64,000 nt of DNA from Psychrobacter aquimaris (lineage in GTDB: Bacteria > Pseudomonadota > Gammaproteobacteria > Pseudomonadales > Moraxellaceae), in the NCBI RefSeq assembly GCF_016107525.1, contig NZ_JABASR010000007.1:124001-188000 (forward strand). Reading direction: 5' to 3'. The position numbers were made by a program, and so were the translations under genes. Shown piece by piece: positions 1 through 17,418 of the stretch; positions within the stretch are counted from its first letter, which is position 1, and the number at the start of each line of letters is the position of its first letter. The notes below the pieces were generated by a model, which had not been told where the DNA came from, made no database searches, and was given only the letters and a program-made list of their open reading frames with translations.

Positions 1-1930
1 AGATAAGCTTGGCGTGCGTATTCGTATGGCACTAAGACCTACTGATCCACAGCGTAGCATTCTCGACCAGTTAATCAACATTCACGCCCAGTGCGACAGC
101 TTGTCCTCATGCTTATCTGCTATCAGACAACATGAAGCAAGTGTTAAACAGGAAGAGGCAACAGGTAAAACAGCCAATCAATATCTTGCTAGTAAAATCG
201 GTCAAATCAGACTTGGTTATGAGGTAGTAATTGATAATAAAGCTTTTATTGGTAAAACCTATACTGAAAATACTAAACGCGTAAAGTCGGCTCAAACCGT
301 CACCAAGACAGTGGCGCATATCGATGGTGAGCCGCTACAAAGAATAGTGTTTGGTACGAAAAAATCAAAAAAGCACAGTAACGTGGCAATCGCTGAAAAT
401 ATTGCTGATGACGACGAAGTACCTTTGCTAGACAATGACTTTAAGCCAGCCACACAAATTGCTAAATCCTCTGAGTTGCAGCAATGGCGATTAAAAAACA
501 ACCATCAACACGCCCGCCGTAATCAATTTCATTTCCCAACCAATCATCGTCAGCTAAGCATTACCGGATACCAGATGCTATTTGCCACGCTTTGGCAGCG
601 CTTTATGAGTGTTGATAAACAGAGTAGCACTGGGTATGCCGTTTTAATACTATCACTGTTAAGCGGTCTTAGTATTGATAGCATCATTGCTGATTGGCAA
701 TGCAGTCGCAGTCAACGGCAGTATTTTGTCTATGACCGTGTCCGTAAAGTTAGTAGCATTGCCATCACGATTGATGTGACGACCAATACTCGAAGTCATC
801 TGCTTGCCCACAGACAAAGCTACGGCAGTACCTTTTATCGCGCACTGCCTGAAGCTTTGCAAATCATGCTTGAGGATAAAATTACCGTTTCATCCGATAC
901 TGTTAAAGCCGCTATCTCTTACGCTAAAGATATACTTAACCTACCAGCACTGAGTCCTCAATATATTGAAGCAGGCCTGTTTATATTGATCAAAAACGAG
1001 CTTAATAAGCCCTTATATGCTGACCTGATCACAGGTGTTGATGTACGGCATAGCTCTGCGCTGTATTACCTTAGCACTAAAATGGTAGAGCTAGAGCAAA
1101 CTTATATAAAAGCGATAGAGCTGATAACTGAATACTGCAATGATGAGCAAAAAGCACTTTTAATAGATGAGTGTAGCATACCGATGAACGGGCATAGAAG
1201 CTACATTGGTAGTGATATGGCACTAAAGACCACAATGTGCCAGCAGTTCTTTAATCAACTGGCTGTCAGTGCCGAGAGCTTTAATGGCAAGCTAAAATCC
1301 CACATGGATCGCTATATTGCGCAGTTCAATAGCTATAGCATTTGGCTATGGCACATTGTTATGATCCAAACCGGTATTCGCCCAGTCAAGCATGCACCAG
1401 GCTTGCTACACCAGTTTGACTTTCATCGGTACATATTATGGGTATCTGATAAAGAAGAGCGTCATGCGCAATCTGATGGCAGGCTTATTCCTCTTAGCAA
1501 GTTTTTGATAATGGCTATTCAAAACTACATTATTTATATTAAGCAATTTGCCGCTATCTATAATTCATTATATCCAGCAGCGCGTTATCCCATCAATGCC
1601 ATCTTGCAATCAGAACAACCCCTCATTCAAATTTACCAAAAAAATCCAAAAGGCTTTGCCCGTATTACGCCAAGCCGAGTCCGCTATCAGTTGCAAGATT
1701 TTTTTAGTCATCAGGATAACTGGCTGCGTCATCAGCTGAGGTCTATGCTCACAGGGCGCGTGCCTGACTATCTGATTTGCACCCTTTACGGTCACGAACA
1801 TGCTGATCAGGAATTCATGCACCCGATGTCATCAAGCTCTATCAATCAGCTGCACCAGCTCAGCCCTCATTTAGATGCGATCGCTACAGATCTTCACTTA
1901 AAACAAATTGAGGTTCGTCTATATGGATAA
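1..1930 (+). CDS. Tyrosine recombinase-like protein without an obvious catalytic tyrosine, 5' end cut by the window edge
   Basis: The frame is open to the window edge (a GTG lies at 14, but codons continue upstream), so the true start is probably outside. The N-terminal ~400 residues are not recognised. The C-terminal part looks like an integrase catalytic fold: an arginine in a TGIRP box (near residue 453 counted from 14), a beta-hairpin with K and R ending in LIPLS, then HQLR (near 573) and YGHEH (near 592). In active enzymes a tyrosine follows the GH motif by about 9-10 residues; here the stretch reads EFMHPMSS and has no tyrosine nearby. The gene overlaps the next recombinase by 8 bases, which suggests they are translated together. 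Inference: a non-catalytic partner in a multi-recombinase unit, distantly like the TnpA/TnpB pairs of Tn554-type elements. Confidence 0.6.
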   Translation, partial: DKLGVRIRMALRPTDPQRSILDQLINIHAQCDSLSSCLSAIRQHEASVKQEEATGKTANQYLASKIGQIRLGYEVVIDNKAFIGKTYTENTKRVKSAQTVTKTVAHIDGEPLQRIVFGTKKSKKHSNVAIAENIADDDEVPLLDNDFKPATQIAKSSELQQWRLKNNHQHARRNQFHFPTNHRQLSITGYQMLFATLWQRFMSVDKQSSTGYAVLILSLLSGLSIDSIIADWQCSRSQRQYFVYDRVRKVSSIAITIDVTTNTRSHLLAHRQSYGSTFYRALPEALQIMLEDKITVSSDTVKAAISYAKDILNLPALSPQYIEAGLFILIKNELNKPLYADLITGVDVRHSSALYYLSTKMVELEQTYIKAIELITEYCNDEQKALLIDECSIPMNGHRSYIGSDMALKTTMCQQFFNQLAVSAESFNGKLKSHMDRYIAQFNSYSIWLWHIVMIQTGIRPVKHAPGLLHQFDFHRYILWVSDKEERHAQSDGRLIPLSKFLIMAIQNYIIYIKQFAAIYNSLYPAARYPINAILQSEQPLIQIYQKNPKGFARITPSRVRYQLQDFFSHQDNWLRHQLRSMLTGRVPDYLICTLYGHEHADQEFMHPMSSSSINQLHQLSPHLDAIATDLHLKQIEVRLYG

Positions 1931-4900
1931 TATTAGCGCTCATAAACTGCGACAGCTGAATAGAGAAGAATCCAAAAAAAGTGTTAAGCGTGACGCTAAA
2001 AAATTAATCGAAGAATATATCAATCAAAATTCTATGCAATTGCCTTGTGAGCTGCAGCATCACTACGAAGCAATTAACCTGTTACTAGAAGGGACGTTCG
2101 ATACCGCTCAAAACTTCCAATTGGCGCGGCGCGGGTTTTTAGAGTTTGTTCGTGATTATAATAAAACTCACCAGATATATCTTGATGAGCCTGTGGTACC
2201 GATACTGGCAACTCGTGAGCGCTTGACCATTAACTATGATTGGTTTGTGAGTGGACGCGCTGTGGCAGACAATAGCGCAACAATGATAGAGGTTTGGCAA
2301 CGAAAACGGCGTTTCTCAGTAAACGACTTGGTTGAAGGGGTGCTGTATTGCAGCATAATGTATGGCGGTATTAATGATATTGAGGTGTTAAGAGCGCTCT
2401 ATGATTGGCTGTTTGGTGAGCGCCGTGTGTATAAAATTGACATGCCAGCGACTGATGAAAAAAGCAGGGTAGAGCATTTGGCTGTGATATCGCTTGAGGT
2501 GCATGATGCTAACTATGGCTGCGCGATTGATGAGGATAATGACCTACATCGATTCGTTGATTATATTCCCGATGATATGAGCCTGTGTTTTTTATACGCT
2601 CTAAAGAACAAAGAGTTAAATACTGCCAAGATAAAGCCATTTAATACTATAATCAACGATATCTCAAAAACGCTTAAACTCACTAATAAAGATATCAATC
2701 GCCCGCAGCACTCACTGCTCATCAAATATGCGAACTACCACTGGCGGCAACTGGAAGATAACCAGATTGATGGGGCGCTTGCCGTGATTAAACAGGGTAA
2801 CCTCAAAACCACAGGACTGCCGACTGATAAGCTCATTCATTATAACCGAGAGGACATTAAGTCAAATCCTGTACCACTAACGTGGTCTGAACTGTTTAAT
2901 GCCAGTTATCAGACGGCAGGAAAATCACAAGACAAGAGAAATGCCACAGCTTATCCAAGCTTTAGTAAAAATGTGATCAAAGAGCTACAAGATGCACTCA
3001 AACTGATTAGAAACGCCGCTATTTCTACTATCACAACATTAAAGACAGACGCTAGCCAGTCTAATGCACAGCGCTTGCTTAGTTGGACTTTGTCGTTGCT
3101 CGGTGATACTAGCATTAGACTAAATACTATCAGTAAGTATGTGGGCTGCATTGGCCGCGACTGGCTGATGCTAACGATGGATGAGGACGTTGATCAATGG
3201 GAAGGCAGTGACTTTGAGGACGTTTACGAGCAGATTATTCAAAGTAAGGTAAAAAATGGCCGCAGGGTATCTGTGCTGAGCAAGTCATCAGAGTTTGATG
3301 ATACGTCTAGTGGTATAGATAATGATAACAATGCTACTGGTCAACAGCTATCTCATCTTGACCGCCTGAAAGACAGCCAGAAATTTACTTATGGGCGTCT
3401 GAAAGCATTTCACGATCACCAGCGTATGCACTTTGATGCGCCTTACGTTTATTTTCCATGGGGCAATAATCGGCAGGTAGTAAAATCTGAGATGGTGTCA
3501 CCGCATGTGTATCATGCGATGAAAGATTATATTCAGTCATCAAATTTAGATTTTGAGCAAAAGCAATTATGCTTTGTGGTTCTAGCACTTGCTTATCGCA
3601 CCGGTATGCGTATCAATGAAATTATTGGTACTAAGGTTAACGACATTACAGATATAGGGTTTATCAATGGCCAAGTGATTGAAGCGCCAAAAATAATTCT
3701 CAAACCCAACCGCTATCGTAGTCTTAAAAGCAGTAGTGCCAAACGAGTGATACCGATAGATAAGCTTTTCAAGATTGATGAGTTGAAACCGTTCATCGCA
3801 TTCTATTATCAACAAAAAAGGTTAAAGCGCCGCTATTTATTCTCACAAGGGTCAGGCGATCAACCACTACCATCTATATTTTTCAGCAATATGATGAAAA
3901 TAATATGGGATCGCTTATTAAATAATCATGACTTCACCTTTCATAGCTTTCGGCATACCGCCATTAGCCAATTGGCACTGGTGTTAAGCGGCTCATCACT
4001 TAAGCAGGTGATGACAGATTACGATATAGCTCATAGCGACGCTATCGTTGAAGCTATTCTTGCTAATAATAAAGAAAAGGGGGTGTGGTTTGGGCTGGCT
4101 AGTCTTGCTGGGCATCTAACGCCAGATACTACGTTTGAGCACTACATTCATATCGCTCATTTGCTCGCGGGCTGGCAAATGAGTGAAGCAAAACTAACGC
4201 TACCATTAACCGTTATAGATGCAGTCACAAAGATAAACTACCAGACAGTAAATAGAGAGGATGCTAGTGCCTACGACGCTAAAACTAAGCTAGTCGCCTT
4301 GAGTAAGTTACGTTTGTATCTTATAAAAAAGCTAGCTTGTCATAAAACATCTTTGTTTGTTGAAAGTATAGAACAAAAGAAAGGCTCTGAATCTAGCCAG
4401 CAAGCAACTGAAAATGCTAAAGACACAGAGAAACCAGAAGTAAAATCTATTTTAATCCATCCAAAGTATCATGATGTGATTGCATTTTTAGAAGAAATAC
4501 AGGAACTAAAAGTTGAAAAAAGACAAGAAAAGCTAGCAGAAGTTGCTATAAGGCATGGTATTAGTATAACCGAAGCAAAATGTATCTATCACAAGGCAGA
4601 GCAAGTGTTGACAAGCGATAGATTGCTGTTAGGCGCACCGAGAGGACGTAAGAATCAAGAGCTACTTATTAAAGCGCTTGATAGGGTTTATCAGATGTCT
4701 ATTGAAGAGCCTTTGCAGTTAACAGAATTCGTAGAAATCTTCTCTAATAAACATAATATAAAGACATCCTCTCTACATTTTGGGGTAAAAAAATCACAAT
4801 TAATAATACTAAAACAGTTCGTAAGTATAGGAACTAGACTCGTTGATAGCTTGTATTGGCAGATTCGTGCTGATAGCGAGAAGACGGTTAGTCATCTTAA

Positions 4901-5090
4901 AAAGGAGCTAAAGCTGGACAGCAATATACGTACTGGATCTCGTGAAAACTACAAAGGTTATGAAGTCAGAGTAGTACAGAGAAAACGTAGACATTCTGAT
5001 AAAAACTTGGCTAAGGCGGATAGCTACTATGCTTCTTCAGGACTTCTGAAATACGTGGGCTACTTACTTATGATATTAGTTGAAAACTAG
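1923..5090 (+). CDS. Large tyrosine recombinase/site-specific integrase
   Basis: About 1055 residues, much longer than usual integrases (300-500). The catalytic core lies in the middle: arginine in AYRTGMRINEI (near residue 565), HSFRHT (near 675), and GHLTPDTTFEHYIH with the tyrosine nucleophile (near 742). A region of about 540 residues precedes it and about 300 follow it; the tail contains a charged stretch and possible helix-turn-helix repeats that I cannot name. I chose ATG at 1923 because GAGG lies 9 bases before it and it overlaps the previous stop (ATGGATAA); a TTG at 1908 is also open. Inference: this is the active recombinase, and the upstream gene, which lacks a tyrosine, is its partner. 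It moves either this island or a nested element. Family membership is firm, the exact role is not. Confidence 0.8.
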   Translation: MDNISAHKLRQLNREESKKSVKRDAKKLIEEYINQNSMQLPCELQHHYEAINLLLEGTFDTAQNFQLARRGFLEFVRDYNKTHQIYLDEPVVPILATRERLTINYDWFVSGRAVADNSATMIEVWQRKRRFSVNDLVEGVLYCSIMYGGINDIEVLRALYDWLFGERRVYKIDMPATDEKSRVEHLAVISLEVHDANYGCAIDEDNDLHRFVDYIPDDMSLCFLYALKNKELNTAKIKPFNTIINDISKTLKLTNKDINRPQHSLLIKYANYHWRQLEDNQIDGALAVIKQGNLKTTGLPTDKLIHYNREDIKSNPVPLTWSELFNASYQTAGKSQDKRNATAYPSFSKNVIKELQDALKLIRNAAISTITTLKTDASQSNAQRLLSWTLSLLGDTSIRLNTISKYVGCIGRDWLMLTMDEDVDQWEGSDFEDVYEQIIQSKVKNGRRVSVLSKSSEFDDTSSGIDNDNNATGQQLSHLDRLKDSQKFTYGRLKAFHDHQRMHFDAPYVYFPWGNNRQVVKSEMVSPHVYHAMKDYIQSSNLDFEQKQLCFVVLALAYRTGMRINEIIGTKVNDITDIGFINGQVIEAPKIILKPNRYRSLKSSSAKRVIPIDKLFKIDELKPFIAFYYQQKRLKRRYLFSQGSGDQPLPSIFFSNMMKIIWDRLLNNHDFTFHSFRHTAISQLALVLSGSSLKQVMTDYDIAHSDAIVEAILANNKEKGVWFGLASLAGHLTPDTTFEHYIHIAHLLAGWQMSEAKLTLPLTVIDAVTKINYQTVNREDASAYDAKTKLVALSKLRLYLIKKLACHKTSLFVESIEQKKGSESSQQATENAKDTEKPEVKSILIHPKYHDVIAFLEEIQELKVEKRQEKLAEVAIRHGISITEAKCIYHKAEQVLTSDRLLLGAPRGRKNQELLIKALDRVYQMSIEEPLQLTEFVEIFSNKHNIKTSSLHFGVKKSQLIILKQFVSIGTRLVDSLYWQIRADSEKTVSHLKKELKLDSNIRTGSRENYKGYEVRVVQRKRRHSDKNLAKADSYYASSGLLKYVGYLLMILVEN

Positions 5091-6183: not shown

Positions 6184-7653
6184 TCACATGACACCTAATT
6201 TTGTGTATAAGGCTTTTTTGCTTATCATATTAGCGTCTAATGGAGCTAAACGTAATGCAGCTTTTAAGTAGGCTACTGCACCTGAGTAATCACGCATTTG
6301 CTCGCAAACTAGTATTAATTGACAAAGCACTTTAAATTTCATTGGCGTCTTTTGATTCACTTTTTCCAAGAGGGCTCTTGCTTCTGGATACTTGGCTTCA
6401 AGACCAAGTATTGAGGATTCGAGATACATTGTAGTAGTGTTTTCTTCTGCAGCTTGCTTTCGCTTTAATAGCCAATATTTAGCCTGATTAATATCACGAA
6501 TTTGTAGATTTGCTTTAATGATTAATTCGAATAGATCTAATGGATGCTGCAATTCGCCCTCTAACAAAACTGCTCTGTTCTCTTCAACAATCTTTTCAAA
6601 CTCAAACAAGCGGTTCGCTCTATATAGTGCAATGAGTTGTTGGTGTAATGCTTGTAGATCTTTACTACGATTGTATTCTTGGGCAGAGAGTAGAGCGGCT
6701 TTTTGATAGGCTTGCTCAGACATGGCAGCTATTACTGCACTAGACCAGTCTTGCTCAGGTTTACTTTGATATATAGGGTTGATAGTTATTGATTTAAGTT
6801 GTTTCTCAACGGCACTATCAAATGCTTCAACTAATAGCGATACTGACTGATACCTATGTCTAGGTTGTTTTTGAAGGCAAGTCAGCACTACTTGCTCTAA
6901 ATCTGAGTGAATAAAGTTATTAATTTCTGTAGGTCGCCTAAAAGGTGCATGGCGTTGAACTTGTGCCGGCGTATTATGTGGTAGTTGCCCTGTAATTAGT
7001 TGGTATAGTAGTACTCCTAGACTGTAGATATCTCCCAGTAGCAACTCTTCCAAGCTACCTTTCCGGCTATACACATTAGAGAACTCAGGTGCTGAATAGA
7101 GCACGGTGCCGCCATTTTCCCTAGAGCGAACGTAAATCTCATCAGGTAAAGCTGAGCTACCGAAATCTGTGAGCTTCACTAAATCTTGCTCGCCCACCAA
7201 AATATTATGTGGTTTGATGTCACCATGAGAGATTGGCACTGATAGATTAGCCAAGTAGTGTACAGCGTCAAGTACTTGCCGATAGATACTGAAAAGTCGC
7301 TCGTAAGTTTGACCAAAATTTCTCTGATGGTCATCTAACTTTTGCGCCAATGTTTGACTGGGAAAGTATTCCATTTCAATATAAAACCATTCATTCTCGA
7401 TTCGGCCCATATCAAATATCTGTACTATATTAGAATGCGCCTCGATCCCCAGTAGCTCTTTTCCTTCAGCTAACTCTCTATCTTTACGTGTCATATCTTT
7501 AGGTATTTTAACTGCAACAATTTGATTGTCTTGTAAGCGCTCAGCGCGCCATACCCAGCCATGACTACCATCACCCAAACATTCTAGAAGTAAGTATTTA
7601 TCACCCAAGCGCTTATTTGTGCCTGGTAAGAAATGTGCTGACTTTATATTCAC
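6184..7653 (-). CDS. Serine/threonine protein kinase with repeat-like C-terminal domain (defence operon)
   Basis: The kinase domain spans about residues 20-290: glycine loop GDGSHG (27-32), ATP-anchoring lysine in AVK (49), catalytic loop HGDIKPHN (143-150), DFG (163-165) and APE (188-190). The usual HRD is HGD, so this is a non-RD kinase, but the aspartate is present and it should be active. Residues 300-489 look helical and repeat-like, in the manner of TPR repeats. No membrane segment is seen, so it is cytoplasmic. The gene starts with GTG overlapping the previous stop as GTGA and is last in the operon. Known: kinases occur in BREX type 2/Pgl (PglW) and related defence systems. Inference: it signals phage infection or controls the nuclease parts by phosphorylation. 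This one is far smaller than PglW. Confidence 0.85.
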   Translation of the reverse strand: MNIKSAHFLPGTNKRLGDKYLLLECLGDGSHGWVWRAERLQDNQIVAVKIPKDMTRKDRELAEGKELLGIEAHSNIVQIFDMGRIENEWFYIEMEYFPSQTLAQKLDDHQRNFGQTYERLFSIYRQVLDAVHYLANLSVPISHGDIKPHNILVGEQDLVKLTDFGSSALPDEIYVRSRENGGTVLYSAPEFSNVYSRKGSLEELLLGDIYSLGVLLYQLITGQLPHNTPAQVQRHAPFRRPTEINNFIHSDLEQVVLTCLQKQPRHRYQSVSLLVEAFDSAVEKQLKSITINPIYQSKPEQDWSSAVIAAMSEQAYQKAALLSAQEYNRSKDLQALHQQLIALYRANRLFEFEKIVEENRAVLLEGELQHPLDLFELIIKANLQIRDINQAKYWLLKRKQAAEENTTTMYLESSILGLEAKYPEARALLEKVNQKTPMKFKVLCQLILVCEQMRDYSGAVAYLKAALRLAPLDANMISKKALYTKLGVM

Positions 7654-8207
7654 AGTAACACCTCATTGTGAATTCGGTCTAATGCTATTGTTGACAGGCT
7701 TTTTATAAATATAAACCTGCTAAGAGTAACTTCTAGATTATGATGAGCAGAAACACGGTTACCAGTTGAAGAGGTAAAGCCATATTTACAGATATTTTTT
7801 AGACTTTTTACATCAGGTGCGTTTACCAATCCTTGGCTCCAAGTACTGAGTACAAGTTGTATTGGGGAGTGCTGCCATCGCTGCGCTGATTCAAGTAGAT
7901 TTTTCAGTTTCTCTTCTAGCTTAAGCTGACTAGGTTTTGACCCATCGTATCGCTCAAATTCAATTAAGCACAGCGGTTTTGTTGCGTGCATCTCAAACCA
8001 TCCTGAATCTGAGCGTATATCTGCACCAGAAGTCCCAGGCGCTGGACATTCAACAACTGCCATGTAACCTTGATCATGACCGAAGGTATTCCAAACACTA
8101 CAACCTAAGCTATGTACTAGAACATCTTGATCTATAAGTTTTGCACTGGTTAATAATGGAAAGTTGTTTGATACCCACTCAAAGTTGGGCAAAGTCATAT
8201 TAGCCAT
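7650..8207 (-). CDS. Unknown 185-aa protein, possible PD-(D/E)xK-type nuclease, between HerA and kinase
   Basis: I chose ATG at 8207: it overlaps the HerA stop by 8 bases (ATGGCTAA) and has GGGG 9 bases upstream. A longer frame opens at 8273 but would overlap HerA by 74 bases. Not recognised as a family. Seen: a central block with GADIRSDSGWFE (residues 61-72) followed by a hydrophobic strand ending in LCLIEFERYDGS (79-90). An acidic residue followed by a hydrophobic strand and E-x-E, with nearby basic residues, recalls the core of restriction-type nucleases, but the canonical E-x-K lysine is not clear. No signal peptide or membrane segment. Its tight coupling on both sides says it works with HerA and the kinase. 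The nuclease idea is weak. Confidence 0.5.
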   Translation of the reverse strand: MANMTLPNFEWVSNNFPLLTSAKLIDQDVLVHSLGCSVWNTFGHDQGYMAVVECPAPGTSGADIRSDSGWFEMHATKPLCLIEFERYDGSKPSQLKLEEKLKNLLESAQRWQHSPIQLVLSTWSQGLVNAPDVKSLKNICKYGFTSSTGNRVSAHHNLEVTLSRFIFIKSLSTIALDRIHNEVLL

Positions 8208-9885
8208 TAAATGAGCCCCAAACACGTAATACCTCTGGCGATTCACCACCATGAATGAGAGCTTTACTACCAACTTTAACTAATAGGGGCGCAGGGATTG
8301 AACGTCCGCATACTAATGCTTCACCAGTAGATAGACTTGGTAACTCATCAAGATCAGCTTTACTTATCATATCTGAGGCCTTAGCAATAAAGCGTTGATC
8401 GTCTGGATTTTTTAGTCGCATAGTAATTAGAGTATTACATTGTGAGGTTACGTCAGGATCTAGTTTAGATGGTCGTTGGCTAACAATTCCAAATCCCACA
8501 CCAAATTTACGTCCTTCTCCGGCAATTTTTTTAATAATGCGATGACTAACAGCTTTACCGCCTGCAGGTGCAAAGCTGTGGCCCTCTTCGTAAATGATAA
8601 AGCAAGGACGAAGTGGATCTGTTTTACTTGAGGCCGCTTTAAGGATTTCACTGGATAATAGAGCACAAACGACTTGTTTCGCTGTATCACTGAGACCTTG
8701 CAAGTCGACAACAACTAAGCGTCCTTGTTGGTTGTTAGGACGGCCAATCATTTTGTAGATGTCAGTGGGCTCTGACATGGCGGCACTGTAAAAGCTTTTG
8801 CCTTCATTAAGCACTCTAGAGAGCTTCATAGAAGCGACTGCAGCACTTCTACCAGAGAGTGCTTTAGCTTCTGCTTCAGACAAGTCGCTCCATTCTTTTA
8901 ACTCTTCGAGTCCATCGCCTAAAAAGTGTCTCAAGCGGTTAATATCTCGTGGTTCCGTCTTATCAGCATAGCGCCAGTAACGAATAGCAACGTCTAAGAC
9001 ACGTTGCTGTGGTTCAGTGAGTCCTGGAAGAATTTCAGCGATGTCATCCATCTCGAAATGATCAAACTGCAAAGCTAAAGGTGTGTTTTTACTAGCATAC
9101 TTGTGTTTGAATGACTCATTTTGCGGCGTATAGATTTGAATGCCAGCACCGGCAGCTTGCAGCTTTTCAAAAGTTTGTTTTATGAGCGGTAGGGTTTCTT
9201 TATCACGCGTATCTTCACTAATATTCAAGTCGTCTGCAAACTGCAAGTTACCACCAGCAAGTGCCTTGCCGTACTCACCGTGAGGATCAAACACTACAAC
9301 AGTACCGTTATTGAGAGTTACCAAGCGTTCAATAATTCTACCCACAGTGTATGACTTTCCTGAACCTGTCATAGCTAATACTGCCATATGCTCAGTCACT
9401 AACTTGTTCACATCAATAAAAACTGGAACTGTATTTTCGCCCTTGTCGTATCCAACCAAATTACCAAGATGGAGGCTTGTATGCTCATTAAATTCGTAAA
9501 AATCACTTAAAAACTGGAAATCAACGGTTTCTACAGCAGTACCGGGATTTAAAGGTCTACGTGGTATTTTTATTTGTCGTGAAATAGGGTCGCGATAGCC
9601 GACTAACTCAACTTGTGCGAACATATTCTCGCCAGTAACGTTTGCACTTGGTAGTAGTTCTAATTCAGTAACGCCATCACCAAATCCAGCGTTGTAAAGC
9701 ATATTGCTACGATTTATTTTAGTTATTCTTCCTAATACGGCTACTTCACCTTCATCCTTTCTTTCTTGATGCATAATACGCACAAATTCACCGCGACGAA
9801 CAGCAAAAGAGTCTTGTACGACCATGGTTAATTGGTTTGCGTCGCCTGTATTACCAACGAGTTTTCCCAAAACTTTATATACCAT
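8200..9885 (-). CDS. HerA-family DNA translocase ATPase (defence operon)
   Basis: 561 residues. An N-terminal beta-rich HAS-barrel-like region (1-140) is followed by the DUF87/FtsK-like motor: Walker A TGSGKS (173-178), VVVFDPHGEY (196-205), Walker B-like LVVVDLQGLSD (390-400), the HerA signature EEGHSF (433-438) and the SQRPSKLDPDV arginine-finger region (469-479). Known: HerA forms hexameric rings that pump DNA and pair with the nuclease NurA. The NurA-like gene lies immediately upstream with an 11-base overlap, which supports a HerA-NurA complex here. Bacterial HerA proteins recur in defence modules (for example Sir2-HerA and DUF4297-HerA). Inference: it feeds invading, unmethylated DNA to the nuclease. 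Confidence 0.9.
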   Translation of the reverse strand: MVYKVLGKLVGNTGDANQLTMVVQDSFAVRRGEFVRIMHQERKDEGEVAVLGRITKINRSNMLYNAGFGDGVTELELLPSANVTGENMFAQVELVGYRDPISRQIKIPRRPLNPGTAVETVDFQFLSDFYEFNEHTSLHLGNLVGYDKGENTVPVFIDVNKLVTEHMAVLAMTGSGKSYTVGRIIERLVTLNNGTVVVFDPHGEYGKALAGGNLQFADDLNISEDTRDKETLPLIKQTFEKLQAAGAGIQIYTPQNESFKHKYASKNTPLALQFDHFEMDDIAEILPGLTEPQQRVLDVAIRYWRYADKTEPRDINRLRHFLGDGLEELKEWSDLSEAEAKALSGRSAAVASMKLSRVLNEGKSFYSAAMSEPTDIYKMIGRPNNQQGRLVVVDLQGLSDTAKQVVCALLSSEILKAASSKTDPLRPCFIIYEEGHSFAPAGGKAVSHRIIKKIAGEGRKFGVGFGIVSQRPSKLDPDVTSQCNTLITMRLKNPDDQRFIAKASDMISKADLDELPSLSTGEALVCGRSIPAPLLVKVGSKALIHGGESPEVLRVWGSFNG

Positions 9886-11023
9886 TATTCAATTCCTCAT
9901 CTAAGCCAGACAACCAGCGAGTTTCAATATCATTATTTTTAAGTGCACCATGTAAGCTTTGGCGATAAAACTTAGTAAATTTGGGCAAAACCCCCAGTTG
10001 CTGATAGCCTAAAAGCTGAGGTAGTGGCATAGCGTTAGCCTTGCTTTGCATATCAAGCACCATTAAGCGGGCTGCTACTAAGTCTAGGCCTGTCGTTTCC
10101 CAGTCTGGCTCGTCGCCAGCAAGCTGTACCATCTTTATTTGGCCACCACGAGCACTGCGATAATGAAAACCAATTAAGCCTTGTTGAACTTCTATACTTG
10201 GCTCTATACGATTTTCTTTTTCAGACAAACGAAACGCAATAGTACGTGAATAATTTCCTAAAACCCCATTGATAAAGCGCAGATCGCCAACTCCAGCTAG
10301 GCTTTCATCTAAATCAGCTAAGTTCATCATACGCTCTTCAGAGAACCCATCACTTAAAAGTATTTGTTGACGGCCTTTTTCTGAACGTAAATCTTGTTTG
10401 GCAATGCTAACGATAGCACTAAAGCGTTCTGCTAGTATGCTGGCGAGGACTACACCTTTCTGGTTCCATGGAAACAGTTTTGCACGGTTATTTTGCCAAA
10501 ATGTTTCAATAGCCCGTAAGGTATTTTCATATTCTTGCTTATGGCGAATATTTCGATCGAGTGGTGCCATATCCCTTGCCAAAAATAGCGGAGTATCTAG
10601 TAAAATTAAATCACAGGGCTCCCCACTTAGTAGTTGTTTTTCCACTAATTGATAAGCTTGACGAATCTCTATCAAGTCTAGACGCTTACGCTGTGCTTCA
10701 AAATCAATATCATCGAGTTCGGAAACAGAGTCGCTACCTTGTGTGCTAACTTTATTGTCTTCAATCAGCAAGTCCGTGCGGACAGCAGCACTAGCATAAA
10801 TAAATCCGCCAAGCGCTCTATCTATGCAAGATTTAGTTGCAATGCCTGATACACGGAGATTAACCACAGTTGACTTTGGTACTGCTTTAACCAATCCAGC
10901 ATCATGAAACAATGGAGCCACTTGCTCAATGTCTCTAATTTGCTTAAGCAATCTACCAGCACTTCCTGGCAGACGTAACTGGCTATCTATCGCTAAAGAC
11001 TGTGCTAAATTCATATTTTTCAT
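9875..11023 (-). CDS. NurA-like nuclease, partner of HerA
   Basis: I chose ATG at 11023, which overlaps the previous stop as TAATG; another start at 11053 would add ten residues. About 382 residues. Seen (numbered from 11053): a strand-rich region with GGFIYASAAVR (82-92), E129 in LIEIRQAY, and CDLILLDTPLFL (147-158), the place where NurA proteins carry a D-hydrophobic-D-G-S-like catalytic strand. Known: NurA is an RNase H-like 5'-3' exonuclease/endonuclease that works with HerA. The match is structural in flavour, and the classic N-terminal DGS motif is not clear, so it may be a divergent NurA. Its place directly before herA is the strongest support. Confidence 0.7.
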   Translation of the reverse strand: MKNMNLAQSLAIDSQLRLPGSAGRLLKQIRDIEQVAPLFHDAGLVKAVPKSTVVNLRVSGIATKSCIDRALGGFIYASAAVRTDLLIEDNKVSTQGSDSVSELDDIDFEAQRKRLDLIEIRQAYQLVEKQLLSGEPCDLILLDTPLFLARDMAPLDRNIRHKQEYENTLRAIETFWQNNRAKLFPWNQKGVVLASILAERFSAIVSIAKQDLRSEKGRQQILLSDGFSEERMMNLADLDESLAGVGDLRFINGVLGNYSRTIAFRLSEKENRIEPSIEVQQGLIGFHYRSARGGQIKMVQLAGDEPDWETTGLDLVAARLMVLDMQSKANAMPLPQLLGYQQLGVLPKFTKFYRQSLHGALKNNDIETRWLSGLDEELNNGI

Positions 11024-11874
11024 TATCGCGTCCCGGTTCTTAACTGTTCGCATAATAACTCAGCATAAGCCCAATAGTCAGAATTCATGAGTATAGTGGT
11101 ACCTTTTTCAGTTAGCCTATTTTCACTAATAAAGCCGTATTGGCATAGATCTAGCCAGCGTTGATCAATTGCTAGGGTAGAGGTATCAAATAACATTTTA
11201 ACCGCTTGATGCTGACAAATCTCTTTCGCTGTCAATCCTGGGATGGCATAGATTAGGAGTAATACTACCTCATCTTTTTTGTCAGGAATAAAATCAGCCT
11301 TATTAACTTCAACTATAGAGGGAGTCGTATCTCCCGAATGAGTAATTAGCCAATTTAGCCAATCCAATAATATATCGCTATGATCTAGTAGGTTTAGAGA
11401 CCAAAGGGGTAAGGTAGTCATCGCAAATAGACCACTGTTACTGTGTTTACGAATATATCGCGTATGAATTACATCAGCTATCTGATGAAGGGTTGCGTTC
11501 GAGCTGCCACTAAAACCTATAATTTTTTGGGTGATTTCATCGGCTAGTAATTTTGTTAGGCCATCAGTATTAGCATCGATAATATTTGGAGCGGCTGCCA
11601 GATGCCAATCAATTTCAAGTTCAGGTGCTTGCCAGCAGTCAGTTTTACTGGTTAACGGATCCACTACTAATGCTGCGCAACCAGTTTGCATTGACCAATG
11701 ATACAAGGTTCGCCAATCTTCTACTTGGTTTAACTCATCACCTTGCACCAGTAGTAAACCTTGTTGGGGTGGGTTGGATTGCCAGTCACTCGTCAATGGC
11801 TGCGCTTGTACAATACTATGCAAAAAACGCCCTTTGCGATTACTACCCAGTTTAGCTGATATATATATTGTCAC
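11023..11874 (-). CDS. Unknown 283-aa defence operon protein, possible winged-helix C-terminus
   Basis: Starts with GTG overlapping the ATPase stop as TAGTG. No family recognised. Residues 1-150 show alternating strands (GLLLVQGDEL, AALVVDP) without nucleotide-binding motifs. Residues 200-275 look like a winged helix: a helix followed by GLTAKEICQHQAVKM and YGFISENRLTEKGTTIL, typical of small wHTH domains of the DUF/MarR kind. No signal peptide or membrane segment. Its position between the giant ATPase and the nuclease suggests a subunit that links them or reads DNA. The function is an inference from context only. Confidence 0.7.
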   Translation of the reverse strand: MTIYISAKLGSNRKGRFLHSIVQAQPLTSDWQSNPPQQGLLLVQGDELNQVEDWRTLYHWSMQTGCAALVVDPLTSKTDCWQAPELEIDWHLAAAPNIIDANTDGLTKLLADEITQKIIGFSGSSNATLHQIADVIHTRYIRKHSNSGLFAMTTLPLWSLNLLDHSDILLDWLNWLITHSGDTTPSIVEVNKADFIPDKKDEVVLLLIYAIPGLTAKEICQHQAVKMLFDTSTLAIDQRWLDLCQYGFISENRLTEKGTTILMNSDYWAYAELLCEQLRTGTR

Positions 11875-14800
11875 TAAGCCCCCAAGCTTTCTGCAAAAGT
11901 TAAACGCATTTTTAGGATGCCTTTATCTACCAATATTTGTTGTTGCTGAATGTTCAGCTTTGGCTCTTCATTCTGATTAATGGACTCATAGATACGTTGC
12001 CACTCATCTAATGAAAGTCCAGTCCCACTAAGTGCTTTATTAGCTATTTCTTTCCAGTCATGTACTGTTCTATCACATATCAGTAGCACCTCACTTACCA
12101 TAAGCTCTTTCATATCTGAGAGATTCAATACAGTAGCATGAGGGCTAGAATGCTGCTGCGAGATGAATAAAGGCTTTAGCATGGGTAGCCAGGCATTAAC
12201 CTCTTTAATAGAGTTATCTTTCATTTGATTTAAATGTTGACTGATTTTTATTAGATCGCCATGTATGGGGGCGATTTGACCACGGGCAGGCTTTAATAGC
12301 TCATCTGGCAAATCTCGAAGGGCAGTAAACTGACCATTACGAAGGCTGGCTTGTATCAGCTGTCGTTTTTGTTCAGCATCAGAAGGCAAATCTTCTATTG
12401 CGTCTTCGATTAACTGTAGTTTATTAATCAATTTAGGTAGTTCTGCTATATCGTCTGGATGGGGGTAAGCAGCAGGAGCATCTGCTAGCTGCCTGTGCAG
12501 GCTCGCGGCTTGAGTCTTCTGTTCAGTTAAGTTGTCCAATAGCTTTTCAAAGCGTGTTTTAAAATCACGGTAACTCGTCAGAATATAGCCTTGAATCTCA
12601 GCAAGAGGCAGTTGTTGTTCGCTTTGTAGGTTCAATCCGACTTCAAATGCTAACGCATTCAATTTATTCTGTGAATGAGGTAAATCGAGTTTTCTTAAAT
12701 AATGTAACAGTGTATCGCTACCAGCTTGCTGCTCTCTTTTACCTGTGACACTTGTATTATCTTCTTTCAAGGCTCCATCAAGAATATGGCCTATGGTACG
12801 TAAAGAATTAGTATAAAGAGATTTTGGAAAATTGCTTAGAGTAGAGACATCGTTCTCAATGTCTGCGATTAAGTCGATTAAACGTCTATTAATTTTTTCA
12901 GCACTATCTTCAACGAACTCCGCAAACAAACAGGCTTGTTCGACACGCTGGAATAATGAGGTAGTCTTATCCTCTAAGTTTAAGTCATGTGAGCTCTTTA
13001 AGTTTATTTCAGAGCATTGCATAGGTTTTACTTTCGCTACTAGTGCTAATATCTTAGCTCGTTTAGCGATTAAACTAGCAAGTACACCTGTATCACTGAG
13101 GTGAGAGATATCCTGTAATTGCTCTTCTTTTTGTTTCAGGTCTATAAAAAGCTGGCGAGCTTTCTCAAGTTGCTCTTTGGCTTCCACGGTAGCGTAACCT
13201 AATGAGTTTCGACCAATAGGTGCAAATATATCGTCTATACGACCTTGACCATAGACTCGGCTCATCACCTCAACTTTGGCTTTGTACCCATCGATGCTAT
13301 CGTCATTAAACCAGTTATTGGCTTCGATAATCGCATTATCTAATCGGGATCTTGGATAGTTTTGCCACAAAGCTTGTCTATCGTTAGGGTTTTCCAAAGT
13401 TAGAAGGTTTAGTTCACCACACCACCACATCCACTCATCAAATACACTCTTCGCGGTGTTGTTGGTATCAGAAACATAGCCAAAATAAAATTTCTGTTTG
13501 AAAGATTCGAACTTCCAATTCCATTGTTTATTGGGATGTGCGATACGAGATAAAAATAGTGGGATTTGTGCCTGACTACGCTGCGGATTGTTAAGCTCAG
13601 TAAACAGTTCTGCATGTTCATCAGTAGTAAAGCCTTTAGATATAGAGCTACCAGGAACTTTTAATTTGTCTAGTAAGCTCCCGAGTTCGTCCGATGCAAC
13701 ACCATGTTCACGTTGTAAATCCATCAGACCATTGAGGTTGGGATAGTCGATGGCTAAGGTATACCAGCCTTTAAATAATAAGTTGCGATCATTCGTTGAT
13801 AGCTTGCCATCCGCTTTAAATGGCCAAGCAATTAAACCCCGCTCATGCAAACGATGTCGCCATTTTTGAATAGCATTGGTTGCAAATGTTGTTAGAGCAT
13901 TTAGCTTATTCCTAAATTTTGCAGTAAAGCTCTCAGTGTTTAAAGTAATACTGTGTTTTTCGCACAGCGCTAAGCTCAAGCCTATACGCTCTAACTGATC
14001 TGTTTCGCTAGAATTCACATAGTGTAGTAGTACTGCATCACGCAGTAGAGAGCCATTCTCTAAACGGCTGTATTGCTCCATTAAGTGAGCAGAAGCCGTT
14101 AGTGCCAACACAGGTGTGCGACCATTTTTGCGTGCGTAATCAGATGCAAAGTCGTGCAATTGGTCCAACTCAGTTTTATTGCTTATCCATGCTAGTAATA
14201 CTTTGCCATCGGGATGTAGTTTGAAACCATCTAATGTAAACAATCCGCCTCGTGGTTCGCTAAGCAGTACTAAAGGTTGACCATTACTACCAGCACTATT
14301 ACTTAGTAGGGTTTGATCGTATCTCCAGTTGTTGTCTAATAAACGGATAAAGCCTGTCAAACGAGCCAAAGATTTTAGAATGGGCTTGTGATTACTGTCC
14401 TGTAAAAGCTCAGCCATGGCTTTTTTGTGACCATCACCCATACTAGGGTCTTTAAAAATAAGCGAGTTTTGTTGTACGCTGCGGTAGCGCAAGTCTAGTC
14501 GTAATAGCATCGCAACGCTGGGTCCAATGTGGGTCGCTTCATTTATATCAAGCTCGGTCGCTTCACCGACCAGTTTTTGCCATAGCGCATCGGCGGCAAA
14601 TTCAATCGCTGGATGATCATATAGTAAGCTCAGTAAGTGCTTAAACTCACCTTTAGACAGCGGTAGTAACACGGCATGTTTATCTTCGCTTTGGACCTGC
14701 TCTTTGATAGAAAAGGTAGATATATTATCGAGCAAAGTATCTAAGCTAAGGGCTTGTTCTACAGCGGGATAGTACCATTCTTCACCTTCACGTCGGAATT

Positions 14801-16163
14801 TGGCTTCTTCTAGAGCTTTTCGACATTGCCAGCGTTCTAGACTTAACTTGCGGTAAAGAGCGGCAATCGGCTCTTCATCTTCATTTTTAAGCGCTAATAA
14901 GTCTTGAGCATTTGCTATTTGATTGATTCGAACAGGTAACTGACCATAGAGTAAGTTTTTACATTCAGCTAATAACGTTTGATCACGAGTTTGAATACCC
15001 TCAATAGCACCTTTATCTAGTACATGCTTGGCCACTCGACCAGAGCCTGCAAGTACCGCTTCAAACAGCTCTCCAATATCCTTTAATTGAGGGCCTGCTT
15101 GTTGATACTGATATAAAACAGCATCAACGTTAGCCATAATGACGTTAAACCAACCAAAGTTTGCGCCGCTCATCGCATAAGCTGCTTCTACCAAGCCAGT
15201 AGGGTACTTATGTGCTAGCTTTTCGTCTCCGTCTAGGCTTGCTACGTAGTCAGAAACATCGGCAAATGCATTATGCTCTAGCTCAACCAATTCAAAACGA
15301 CGGGCAACAGATTGAATCTCCCGAAGTTGTTGTCCCAGCAGGGGTGAACATAGCGCCACATAACGCAGCCAATGTAGCTTACGACGAGGGTCCTCTTCCT
15401 TGATTGCTTTACCAATTAAGCGAATAGCTTGACCATCTAAGCGTTTACTATCATCATCTTCTAATCCAAAGGTGGCAGCTTCAGCTACAGTTTCCAGCTC
15501 GTCTAAGACTACAAGCACATAAGATATGCCAAAGCGTTCTAATACTTTATATGCGGCTTGAACAAGATCTACTACCAATGTCGGATCGGTATATAAGTCT
15601 TCTTCGCTATGGTTGGCATTGAGCTCTAAAGCATCCGCCAAATCCTGCGCAGTGAAACCAAGCGGCATTAAACGCTCATAGGCTTGCTTGGCAATTTCAC
15701 TTTGAATTGAACCATCAAATTTCTGCGTTGCCAAAGGCAATAATGCCTGATACAAGCCAAAGGCAAACCAGTTATCAGAGTTCTGATAGTCCGAGGCAAC
15801 TTGAGAGTAGCGAATATAGAGCGCTAAATATTTATCTTGCGCTTGTGAGTCGAAAAGCTGCTGATCATGTAGACTGCCATTTTCATCACGTACAAACCAA
15901 CCTCTAGAATAGTCATTTATTTGTGCTACCAGCTCATGGCCCAAGCGCGATTTACCGCGGCCCCATTCAGCCTCTATCGCAAAAACATGGGCAAAACGGT
16001 CTTCTTCATGGTCTACGGTGTGTAAAAAGGTTTGAAAGCGCTTGAAAAATCGACTTTGGCCTACCAACGGATCACTCGGTGGATAGTCAGAAACACCAGT
16101 AGCTGCCCAGCGATGTTGCTTGGCAAGCGTAGCAACTGATTGGTCATTTAATTCAAAATTCAT
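11874..16163 (-). CDS. Giant P-loop ATPase (1429 aa) of the defence operon
   Basis: Starts with ATG overlapping the previous stop as ATGA. An N-terminal AAA/STAND-type domain carries Walker A AEWGRGKSR (residues 65-73) and Walker B YVLVVLDELE (215-224), preceded by a GQSRFF-like motif (35-40) typical of NTPases that begin with a short anchor. After about residue 400 the protein is long, mostly helical and of unknown fold; residues about 990-1060 and 1190-1290 look like coiled coil. In size and layout it resembles the BrxC/PglY ATPases of BREX/Pgl, but the sequence motifs I can see do not prove that family. Known: such giant ATPases act as scaffolds or sensors in multi-gene phage defence. Inference: central assembly or sensing subunit. 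Confidence 0.8.
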   Translation of the reverse strand: MNFELNDQSVATLAKQHRWAATGVSDYPPSDPLVGQSRFFKRFQTFLHTVDHEEDRFAHVFAIEAEWGRGKSRLGHELVAQINDYSRGWFVRDENGSLHDQQLFDSQAQDKYLALYIRYSQVASDYQNSDNWFAFGLYQALLPLATQKFDGSIQSEIAKQAYERLMPLGFTAQDLADALELNANHSEEDLYTDPTLVVDLVQAAYKVLERFGISYVLVVLDELETVAEAATFGLEDDDSKRLDGQAIRLIGKAIKEEDPRRKLHWLRYVALCSPLLGQQLREIQSVARRFELVELEHNAFADVSDYVASLDGDEKLAHKYPTGLVEAAYAMSGANFGWFNVIMANVDAVLYQYQQAGPQLKDIGELFEAVLAGSGRVAKHVLDKGAIEGIQTRDQTLLAECKNLLYGQLPVRINQIANAQDLLALKNEDEEPIAALYRKLSLERWQCRKALEEAKFRREGEEWYYPAVEQALSLDTLLDNISTFSIKEQVQSEDKHAVLLPLSKGEFKHLLSLLYDHPAIEFAADALWQKLVGEATELDINEATHIGPSVAMLLRLDLRYRSVQQNSLIFKDPSMGDGHKKAMAELLQDSNHKPILKSLARLTGFIRLLDNNWRYDQTLLSNSAGSNGQPLVLLSEPRGGLFTLDGFKLHPDGKVLLAWISNKTELDQLHDFASDYARKNGRTPVLALTASAHLMEQYSRLENGSLLRDAVLLHYVNSSETDQLERIGLSLALCEKHSITLNTESFTAKFRNKLNALTTFATNAIQKWRHRLHERGLIAWPFKADGKLSTNDRNLLFKGWYTLAIDYPNLNGLMDLQREHGVASDELGSLLDKLKVPGSSISKGFTTDEHAELFTELNNPQRSQAQIPLFLSRIAHPNKQWNWKFESFKQKFYFGYVSDTNNTAKSVFDEWMWWCGELNLLTLENPNDRQALWQNYPRSRLDNAIIEANNWFNDDSIDGYKAKVEVMSRVYGQGRIDDIFAPIGRNSLGYATVEAKEQLEKARQLFIDLKQKEEQLQDISHLSDTGVLASLIAKRAKILALVAKVKPMQCSEINLKSSHDLNLEDKTTSLFQRVEQACLFAEFVEDSAEKINRRLIDLIADIENDVSTLSNFPKSLYTNSLRTIGHILDGALKEDNTSVTGKREQQAGSDTLLHYLRKLDLPHSQNKLNALAFEVGLNLQSEQQLPLAEIQGYILTSYRDFKTRFEKLLDNLTEQKTQAASLHRQLADAPAAYPHPDDIAELPKLINKLQLIEDAIEDLPSDAEQKRQLIQASLRNGQFTALRDLPDELLKPARGQIAPIHGDLIKISQHLNQMKDNSIKEVNAWLPMLKPLFISQQHSSPHATVLNLSDMKELMVSEVLLICDRTVHDWKEIANKALSGTGLSLDEWQRIYESINQNEEPKLNIQQQQILVDKGILKMRLTFAESLGA

Positions 16164-17416
16164 AGTCCACTTCCTTGAATATTAATAAGCTTCGCTGCTC
16201 GTATATCTCGTGCCGTTTGTTTCATAGCTTGTTGTAAACGCGCGCTTCTATAGCCAAAAATAGGTGCTAGTGGCAAGCTATAGCAAGTATCACTAAAGTC
16301 TGGATTAATGCTATAAAGTCCTGCTTCGTTACGTCCACCTTCCTTAAACTGCCAAATTTGGTAACTTAGTAGGTTGGCAATTAATGGTGCTAACGCTCGG
16401 TTTAGGTCATGAGTATTTGGTATTTTTGGATATAGCGAGATGTTTAAATTGTTAAATAATGCCAGTAAAAACGCTGCCAAATTTCCAACATTGACTTCAT
16501 CACCTTCTATCCCTTGCACGACCACACTGATTTCTGTTGGCGAAAAGGCATTCTGGTTACTGGGTAATGTAAGTAGCAAGCTATCGCGTTGTTCAGCTGC
16601 CCAAGCATCTTGTACAAATACGAGTAAGCTTAGAAGAAATAACCAAGGTTGCTGAGTGAATATTGTTAAATGTGATGAAGTGTCACTACTTGAACCTCGT
16701 TCAGTAAGTATCCACGATGCATGAGGTTTAGTTTGATTTAATAGAGAATAAGGTAGTGCTAGTAAACGTCTTGCACACCAGTTTTCATCAAGAGCTTTAG
16801 GATTATTATCAATGGGCGGTAGAGTGGCTAGTGTTGAATCGGCTTCGTGAGCGCTACGCTGAGCGATACTATTCAGCTGATAACTGGCTTTTAAAATCCT
16901 AAGTAGGGCTGGCAAGGCTGCGTTATCATGCAGGCTATGTCCGATCAGCTCGTACTCTAGGTCACTCAATGGTCCAGCACAGAGCTGAGGATTCACAGAA
17001 GTGTCTTCCAACGCTTCTAGCACCCATGCGCTGGCATTACCAAGTTGGCTAATGATTTTGATCAGCATCTGCGGATCGCGCATATTACCGGCTTCACGGC
17101 AGCGTGCAGCAGCCAAGCATAGCCAATGTGCACGGTATCTTGGGTTTAAGCCTAAGAGAGCCAGTTGCCATTCACCAAGTTGGCTTAATGTGCTAAATGC
17201 TATCAATAGGGGGGCGGTCAGAGTATATGCAATTGGAGTATCTGAATATTCATTGTCGCTAATAGGTTGTAACAGCCCGTTTTGTAATAATGGCATAGTA
17301 GCGAAGACCTCAGCAGCTGGTTCGGCAGCTATGCCGCCTCTTTGCCAAAGTAAGGCACAAGTTGTGCTGGCACGTTCCGCCTGAAGCAGCAATGAAGTTT
17401 CGCTGATGGCCATCAT
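16160..17416 (-). CDS. Unknown 418-aa defence operon protein
   Basis: Starts two bases after the specificity-subunit stop (two adjacent ATGs, at 17416 and 17413) and ends inside the ATPase start. I recognise no family. It is helix-rich and hydrophobic in places (for example residues 60-90 and 265-280, WLFLLSLLVFVQDAWAA) but shows no clear transmembrane topology or signal peptide. No nucleotide-binding or nuclease motif seen. Because it lies between the methylase/specificity pair and the giant ATPase with coupled starts, it probably bridges modification and effector parts. A search against the MADS and BREX gene sets would tell whether it is a known accessory subunit. Confidence 0.7.
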   Translation of the reverse strand: MMAISETSLLLQAERASTTCALLWQRGGIAAEPAAEVFATMPLLQNGLLQPISDNEYSDTPIAYTLTAPLLIAFSTLSQLGEWQLALLGLNPRYRAHWLCLAAARCREAGNMRDPQMLIKIISQLGNASAWVLEALEDTSVNPQLCAGPLSDLEYELIGHSLHDNAALPALLRILKASYQLNSIAQRSAHEADSTLATLPPIDNNPKALDENWCARRLLALPYSLLNQTKPHASWILTERGSSSDTSSHLTIFTQQPWLFLLSLLVFVQDAWAAEQRDSLLLTLPSNQNAFSPTEISVVVQGIEGDEVNVGNLAAFLLALFNNLNISLYPKIPNTHDLNRALAPLIANLLSYQIWQFKEGGRNEAGLYSINPDFSDTCYSLPLAPIFGYRSARLQQAMKQTARDIRAAKLINIQGSGL

Positions 17417-17418
17417 CG

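Follow-up and report, generated by a model that had tools for sequence, protein, structure and literature searches.

Gene content at the start of the window

The DNA analysed here, referred to as the window, is a stretch of 64,000 nucleotides of Psychrobacter aquimaris (contig NZ_JABASR010000007.1, positions 124,001 to 188,000 of the forward strand), which opens within a trio of genes arranged in the order 189-aa gene, 770-aa gene and integrase gene of about 1055 aa. The first of these (L003:3062-3631, in the numbering of the locus designated L003) lies entirely upstream of the window and overlaps the second, which occupies L003:3618-5930 (contig positions 123618-125930) on the forward strand and which, on the basis of its open reading frame, predicted AlphaFold2 fold and family conservation, is classed as a tyrosine-less tyrosine-recombinase-fold ('TFP-like') protein. 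The window truncates this second gene, which starts 382 bases upstream and reaches the window with positions 1-1930, where the frame at 2-1930 corresponds to its last 642 codons. The third gene (1923-5090, forward strand) encodes a complete tyrosine recombinase or integrase of 1055 aa when read from the ATG at 1923, or 1060 aa from the TTG at 1908. The initial annotation had described a tyrosine-less recombinase-family protein whose gene overlaps a complete recombinase, an observation that was partly confirmed, with corrections to the gene extent, as given here, and to the register of its H-x-x-R motif, as given below. The overlap itself is real, as the neighbouring frame matches the Pfam Phage_integrase model (PF00589; E 2e-8) and, read from the ATG at 1923, shares 8 bases (ATGGATAA) with the end of the 770-aa gene. 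No match to the 770-aa protein could be found in Pfam, NCBIfam or PADLOC (the 642 window residues being used for Pfam and PADLOC), while comparison against PHROG returned only a weak match (E 0.037).

Related loci were compiled as the best 80 of 88 from genome contigs and one from viral contigs. In this set, frames of at least 720 aa were observed for the second gene at 70/81 loci, the others being short or broken. A full-length integrase gene (at least 900 aa) follows on the same strand at 67 of these 70 loci, and in 64/67 cases the second and third genes overlap or abut, with gaps of 77, 82 and 1408 bases in the remaining three. Of the three loci where a full integrase is missing, two (L063 and L086) reach the contig end, and one (L113) carries only a fragment. 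The gap of 1408 bases occurs at L100 (BMPS01000027.1), a Psychrobacter-like trio under the label Streptomyces cinereus, which is probably a contamination. The distance matrices of the 770-aa protein and the integrase across 65 loci are strongly correlated (r 0.98; 0/999 permutations as high), as would also be expected from the co-inheritance of any two adjacent genes. The catalytic residues R, K, H, R, H and Y are complete in 66/66 homologues of the partner integrase, with the catalytic tyrosine (Y746 in the numbering from the TTG; Y in 66/66) encoded at 4143-4145 on the forward strand. In two Acinetobacter plasmids the three genes are annotated, in order, as hypothetical, hypothetical and tyrosine-type recombinase or site-specific integrase.

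Predicted fold of the 770-aa protein

AlphaFold2 models based on 43 aligned sequences reached a pLDDT of 77.8 for the 642 window residues (long model), and a pLDDT of 82.6 with a pTM of 0.85 for the last 251 residues (catalytic-domain model). Structural alignment to the archaeal XerA (4a8e) extended over 169 residues at 2.6 Å with the long model (Z 14.3) and over 170 residues at 2.8 Å with the domain model (Z 15.8). The structural alignments listed comprised tyrosine recombinases, type IB topoisomerases and one phage repressor with the tyrosine recombinase (TR) fold, and 8bpz, 9rgl and 8a0a represent such repressors among the structural matches. Foldseek returned no match below E 0.001 with the 642-aa model and three with the domain model. 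A profile search of the sequences of solved structures matched 0 chains, and the profile of the 770-aa family shows no similarity to that of the partner integrase, so that the case for homologous catalytic domains is a structural one, backed by the order of the motifs. On the same comparison, the possibility that the 770-aa gene is a truncated second copy of the integrase was rejected. The 770-aa protein is thus predicted to adopt the catalytic fold of tyrosine recombinases, and its earlier assignment to the recombinase family holds at the level of the fold.

Catalytic residues

Residue conservation was determined from 90 aligned sequences, which remained after duplicates had been removed from the 100 collected (frames shorter than 330 aa being excluded), and the counts given here refer to readable cells. 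All codons below lie on the forward strand, and residues are numbered in the full protein with the window frame in brackets. Arg-I is R588 (R460; in the motif TGIRPV, codon 1379-1381) and the beta-hairpin lysine is K612 (K484; in SDK, codon 1451-1453), each conserved in 88/88 sequences. Arg-II is R704 (R576; codon 1727-1729) and is followed by an invariant histidine, H705 (H577), both in 87/87, as is the His-III of the GH motif, H726 (H598; codon 1793-1795). The presence of R, K and the GH motif had been correctly read in the initial annotation. At the His-II position, in contrast, the protein has asparagine (N701; N573; codon 1718-1720), this position being occupied by N in 70, D in 16 and Y in one of 87 sequences and by histidine in none. 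The counterpart of the integrase H-x-x-R-H motif is therefore N701-W-L-R704-H705. Of the H-x-x-R box that had been proposed, Arg-II is indeed present; the box as read (probably H705-Q-L-R708) lies four residues late, and R708 is arginine in only 69/87 sequences.

The sequence after the GH motif reads EHADQEFMHPMSSSS and lacks a tyrosine. The stretch where the nucleophile would be expected, HIII+9 to +12 (residues 735-738; codons 1820-1831, forward strand), reads H-P-M-S. Tyrosine was found at HIII+9 or +10 in 0/86 readable homologues, while R, K, R and H are invariant, so that its loss exceeds what chance would explain. At HIII+11 a tyrosine occurs in 20/86 sequences beside M, F, N, H and others, and is thus not conserved, while HIII+12 (S738) is serine in 86/86 readable sequences. 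The expected tyrosine register, obtained by extending the alignment ends to the known catalytic tyrosines of Cre, lambda Int, XerH, IntI and Tn1549 Int (the last, Y379, being given in its entry title), falls near HIII+9 in the domain model and near HIII+13 in the long model, and is hence uncertain by about four residues; the loop after His-III has a pLDDT below 50 in both models. Of the checks proposed at the outset, the homologue alignment bears out a family-wide loss of the catalytic tyrosine, and no conserved tyrosine at a shifted place after His-III was found. Elsewhere in the protein Y484 and Y496 are invariant and Y573 nearly so, and the former two lie outside the catalytic domain.

Among columns of the 770-aa family that hold at least 80 letters, only 15 are invariant, and R588, K612, R622, R704, H705 and H726 account for six of them. 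The R, K, R and H residues are kept across sequences with identities down to about 21 percent, and two distant gammaproteobacterial relatives inspected by eye (L146 and L148) retain R, K, RH and GH, with no tyrosine in the region. Two catalytic residues rather than one are absent, since His-II is asparagine in addition to the missing tyrosine. In Cre, His-II helps to activate the tyrosine. The two residues most closely tied to nucleophilic attack thus appear to have been lost, while the invariance of Arg-I, Lys, Arg-II and His-III indicates, from the alignment, that the phosphate clamp has been retained.

A single-chain fusion on Acinetobacter plasmids

On the Acinetobacter ursingii plasmid NZ_CP068182, a single frame of 1680 aa is annotated as a tyrosine-type recombinase. 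Its C-terminal half matches PF00589 at residues 1215-1359 (E 1.5e-9), and an hhalign comparison (probability 98.2; pairwise E 2.7e-14) places its residues 313-743 in colinear register with residues 292-753 of the 770-aa family. The first half was missed by hmmsearch under default filters, but once the filters were switched off the 770-aa family was matched by 8/8 distinct fusions, at E values between 5e-15 and 2e-7 in a database of these eight. In all eight, the first half retains R, K, N, R and H and has no conserved tyrosine, while the second half contains R, K, H, R, H and Y. The HIII+12 position is serine in seven fusions and cysteine in the most divergent one. Fusions of about 1680 aa occur in 42 Acinetobacter plasmid records, with a coverage of 80 percent or more in every case and with IS elements interrupting some of them, and a search of the Moraxellaceae sample with the fusion matched 15/299 genomes, three of them only in the integrase part. 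Given these plasmid records and genome matches, the fusion is a stable gene rather than an artefact of assembly. This speaks for a joint action of the dead and live domains in a fixed ratio.

Distribution, borders and cargo

Matches to the module were found by protein search in 131/299 sampled Moraxellaceae genomes, while among 369 gammaproteobacterial genomes a profile search found matches in three besides the genome of the window. Matches also occur in 253 plasmid records, 251 of which are from Acinetobacter, and no phage record matched. A study of GR13 plasmids (PMC9455709) names tyr13 as a core recombinase gene on these plasmids, at least one of which, pDETAB5, carries the trio.

On the left side in the chromosome, similarity to related loci starts near L003:2030. 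The stretch L003:2029-2826, comprising a 106-aa gene and an Xre regulator, adjoins the trio and is also found beside ordinary Xis-integrase islands (L180-L187), so that the boundary at L003:2030 does not mark the end of a trio element. Elsewhere this stretch flanks modules of Xis and a 414-aa integrase near a pyruvate decarboxylase-like gene (names assigned by eye), and the trio appears to have replaced a phage-type integrase. On the right side, no clear junction was observed in the chromosome, which was followed to 21-25 kb of the window. In the Acinetobacter plasmids, the trio has an abrupt left border (TAATAACAGAAAACTAAAAAAAAGTGG...), which falls on identical bases in three distinct neighbourhoods; the border and its related repeats were recorded at L036:594, 3179 and 5137 (on the Acinetobacter pittii plasmid NZ_CP028573), L192:5003 and L193:4001. 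Related repeats, all oriented alike and measuring about 230 bp for the copies at 594 and 3179, flank HipA and Fic/YhfG toxin modules upstream, and 391 such places were counted in 204 plasmid records. The arrangement may represent an array of cassettes on which the trio acts. The right border in the plasmids is ambiguous between two break points, and no empty site could be demonstrated. At L076:112-308 and L077:8532-8598, an intact trio is preceded by an incomplete further copy of the start or promoter region of its first gene, hinting at tandem accretion of elements.

At the three loci viewed, the cargo directly after the trio includes MADS-like and type I modification genes (window), BREX (L064) and Avs2 (L068). 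Genes similar to mad6, HerA/mad8, type I specificity/mad5 and methyltransferase/mad2 occupy window positions 6184-21104, interspersed with several others for which PADLOC gave no match, and possibly represent a variant MADS-type defence system. On the other side of the trio, at L002:8445-14965 (some 11.6 to 5 kb before the window starts), an operon of genes for glycosyltransferase/kinase-like, GTP cyclohydrolase II/NADAR-like, asparagine synthase-like and arylamine N-acetyltransferase-like proteins (named by eye) was observed, a possible small natural-product cluster.

Comparison with known recombination systems

Several known systems share features with the trio. The phage repressors MrpR, YopR and SroF have the TR fold, as reflected in the structural matches; they act as stand-alone repressors and are not known to have recombinase activity, or to be operon-coupled or fused to a recombinase. 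In the gamma-mobile-trio (GmtX/Y/Z), three genes reportedly form a recombination signature that is associated with defence cargo in gammaproteobacteria, which makes it alike in gene number and cargo. The NCBIfam model recomb_GmtY (441 positions) gave no match above its cut-off in any of four genomes and no match in that of the window, and the three trio proteins matched none of the NCBIfam Gmt models at E values up to 10. The gamma-mobile-trio was accordingly rejected. A literature search found no prior description of the trio, with the gamma-mobile-trio compared by its models only.

A close likeness is that to the SEs, whose core operon is given as intA-tfp-intB-srap, where Tfp is a tyrosine-less tyrosine-recombinase-fold protein (PMC10214605, in its passages on SEs). 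As in the trio, a protein of this kind is there encoded in one operon with complete recombinases, and the genes are translationally coupled (same passages of PMC10214605). However, SEs have two complete recombinases and Srap, while the trio has one complete recombinase; and Tfp is described in those passages as lacking the whole RHRY set (PMC10214605), while the 770-aa protein keeps R, K, R and H. The four core genes of SEs are not present at the locus, where the next large genes of the window after the trio lie on the opposite strand. By sequence, too, SE membership was rejected, as comparison with one set of SE proteins, that of plasmid pAQU1 (L149; a putative SE by gene order and blaGMA-1), gave E values of 0.04 or worse with hmmsearch --max and 0.011 or worse with blastp. 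The GInts (ginABCD) similarly contain, in GinC, a third recombinase-fold protein with an incomplete catalytic set inside a recombination operon, and their cargo begins right after the operon, as it does after the trio (PMC5385486, in its description of the operon). GinC is said to lack the first arginine in that description (PMC5385486), or the tyrosine in the account of PMC10214605. The trio is set apart from GInts by this description, since GinA and GinB are both complete and are joined by GinD, while only one complete recombinase was found here. RIT elements also comprise three adjacent recombinase-fold genes, but all of them keep the catalytic tyrosine and encode proteins of 315-410 aa (PMC10214605, where it treats RITs). 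SEs and GInts both need two complete recombinases and the trio has one; it resembles an SE or GInt module in having a tyrosine-less partner, but was filed in neither group. The view of the locus as a non-standard recombination machine is fair in this light, but tyrosine-less partners with the TR fold are already in print, as Tfp of SEs and GinC of GInts (PMC10214605, in the parts on these elements).

Proposed role of the 770-aa protein

The fold, the family-wide loss of Tyr and His-II, the complete partner, the gene overlap and the fusion lend good support to the earlier proposal of a catalytically dead partner of the adjacent complete recombinase. The 770-aa protein is probably an inactive, stoichiometric partner of the integrase in a self-contained three-gene recombination module. 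The 1055-aa protein would then be the sole catalytic recombinase of the module, and the 770-aa protein a pseudo-recombinase with an intact phosphate clamp, which would bind half-sites and hold the phosphate without cutting. With regard to the proposal that such a partner only binds DNA, the invariant phosphate-binding residues suggest that the scissile phosphate, and not merely DNA, is held; the earlier interpretation is thus partly supported. The overlapping genes, correlated divergence and natural fusion point indirectly to a hetero-oligomer of fixed stoichiometry. In tyrosine recombination of the Cre/Xer kind, four subunits are involved and two are active at a time. With half of the subunits unable to cut, only one pair of strand cleavages would be possible, and exchange may be biased to a single strand and completed by replication as in SE elements. 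The latter are described as having a strict strand bias, one dead fold protein and translational coupling (PMC10214605, in its passages on SEs), and may by analogy serve as a model for one-strand exchange by the trio. The half-dead logic is not a demonstrated cause of the strand bias of SEs, however, because their IntA and IntB both have the tyrosine. It is possible, if doubtful, that the trio forms an obligate half-dead heterodimer (a single chain on some plasmids) whose dead half holds the scissile phosphate and either forbids one cleavage pair, giving a strand-locked exchange, or receives the tyrosine of the partner in trans.

The invariance of R, K, R and H and of the serine at HIII+12 is more than a mere DNA-binding relic needs, which counts against an inactive partner, and two rival explanations draw on these residues. 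The 770-aa protein may be half an enzyme rather than a dead one, its clamp being completed by the tyrosine of the neighbouring integrase, and Flp does complete its active sites in trans. The persistence of R, K, R and H at about 21 percent identity, despite the lost nucleophile and His-II, is consistent with such a composite site, as is the occurrence of both proteins as a single chain on 42 plasmids; but the active site of the integrase is itself complete (66/66) and His-II has been lost as well, leaving this explanation a small likelihood. Alternatively S738, serine in 86/86 sequences and just past the expected tyrosine position, could be a different nucleophile in a serine-dependent enzyme built on the tyrosine recombinase fold. 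While the long model places the tyrosine register near this residue, the domain model places it at HIII+9 rather than +12, S738-S739 sit immediately before the next helix, for which they may be no more than a cap, the cysteine in the most divergent of the eight fusions indicates that HIII+12 is not strictly kept, and His-II is lost, so that a serine nucleophile is highly improbable.

The remaining explanations dispense with a part in strand exchange. There are dead repressors with the TR fold, some of them among the structural matches (8bpz, 9rgl and 8a0a), and the 770-aa protein could, like MrpR or YopR, be a regulator or directionality factor acting at the attachment sites, with no structural part in the strand-exchange complex. 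The single-chain fusion to the integrase and the 1:1 gene order with translational overlap speak against this, and an invariant phosphate clamp would be needless for a repressor; the likelihood of a regulator is small but appreciable. That the gene is a decaying, functionless recombinase is the least probable explanation of all: some copies are indeed frameshifted or fragmented (e.g. L078, L089, L090 and L119), but frames of at least 720 aa at 70/81 loci (best 80 of 88, plus one) contradict a pseudogene, as do the invariant residues and an operon position shared across genera.

Significance

Why SEs and GInts need a tyrosine-less recombinase-fold protein is posed as an open question in print, where no role is assigned to the protein and its knockout failed (PMC10214605, where it discusses this protein). 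The trio family offers a simpler system, with one live and one dead subunit and, in addition, a natural single-chain fusion, so that models of stoichiometry and of half-of-sites activity can be put to a direct laboratory test. The module is common across Psychrobacter and Acinetobacter, and the cargo that was viewed includes defence genes. The pairing of a dead with a live protein, together with their fusion on plasmids, suggests that these bacteria carry an obligate half-dead recombination machine.
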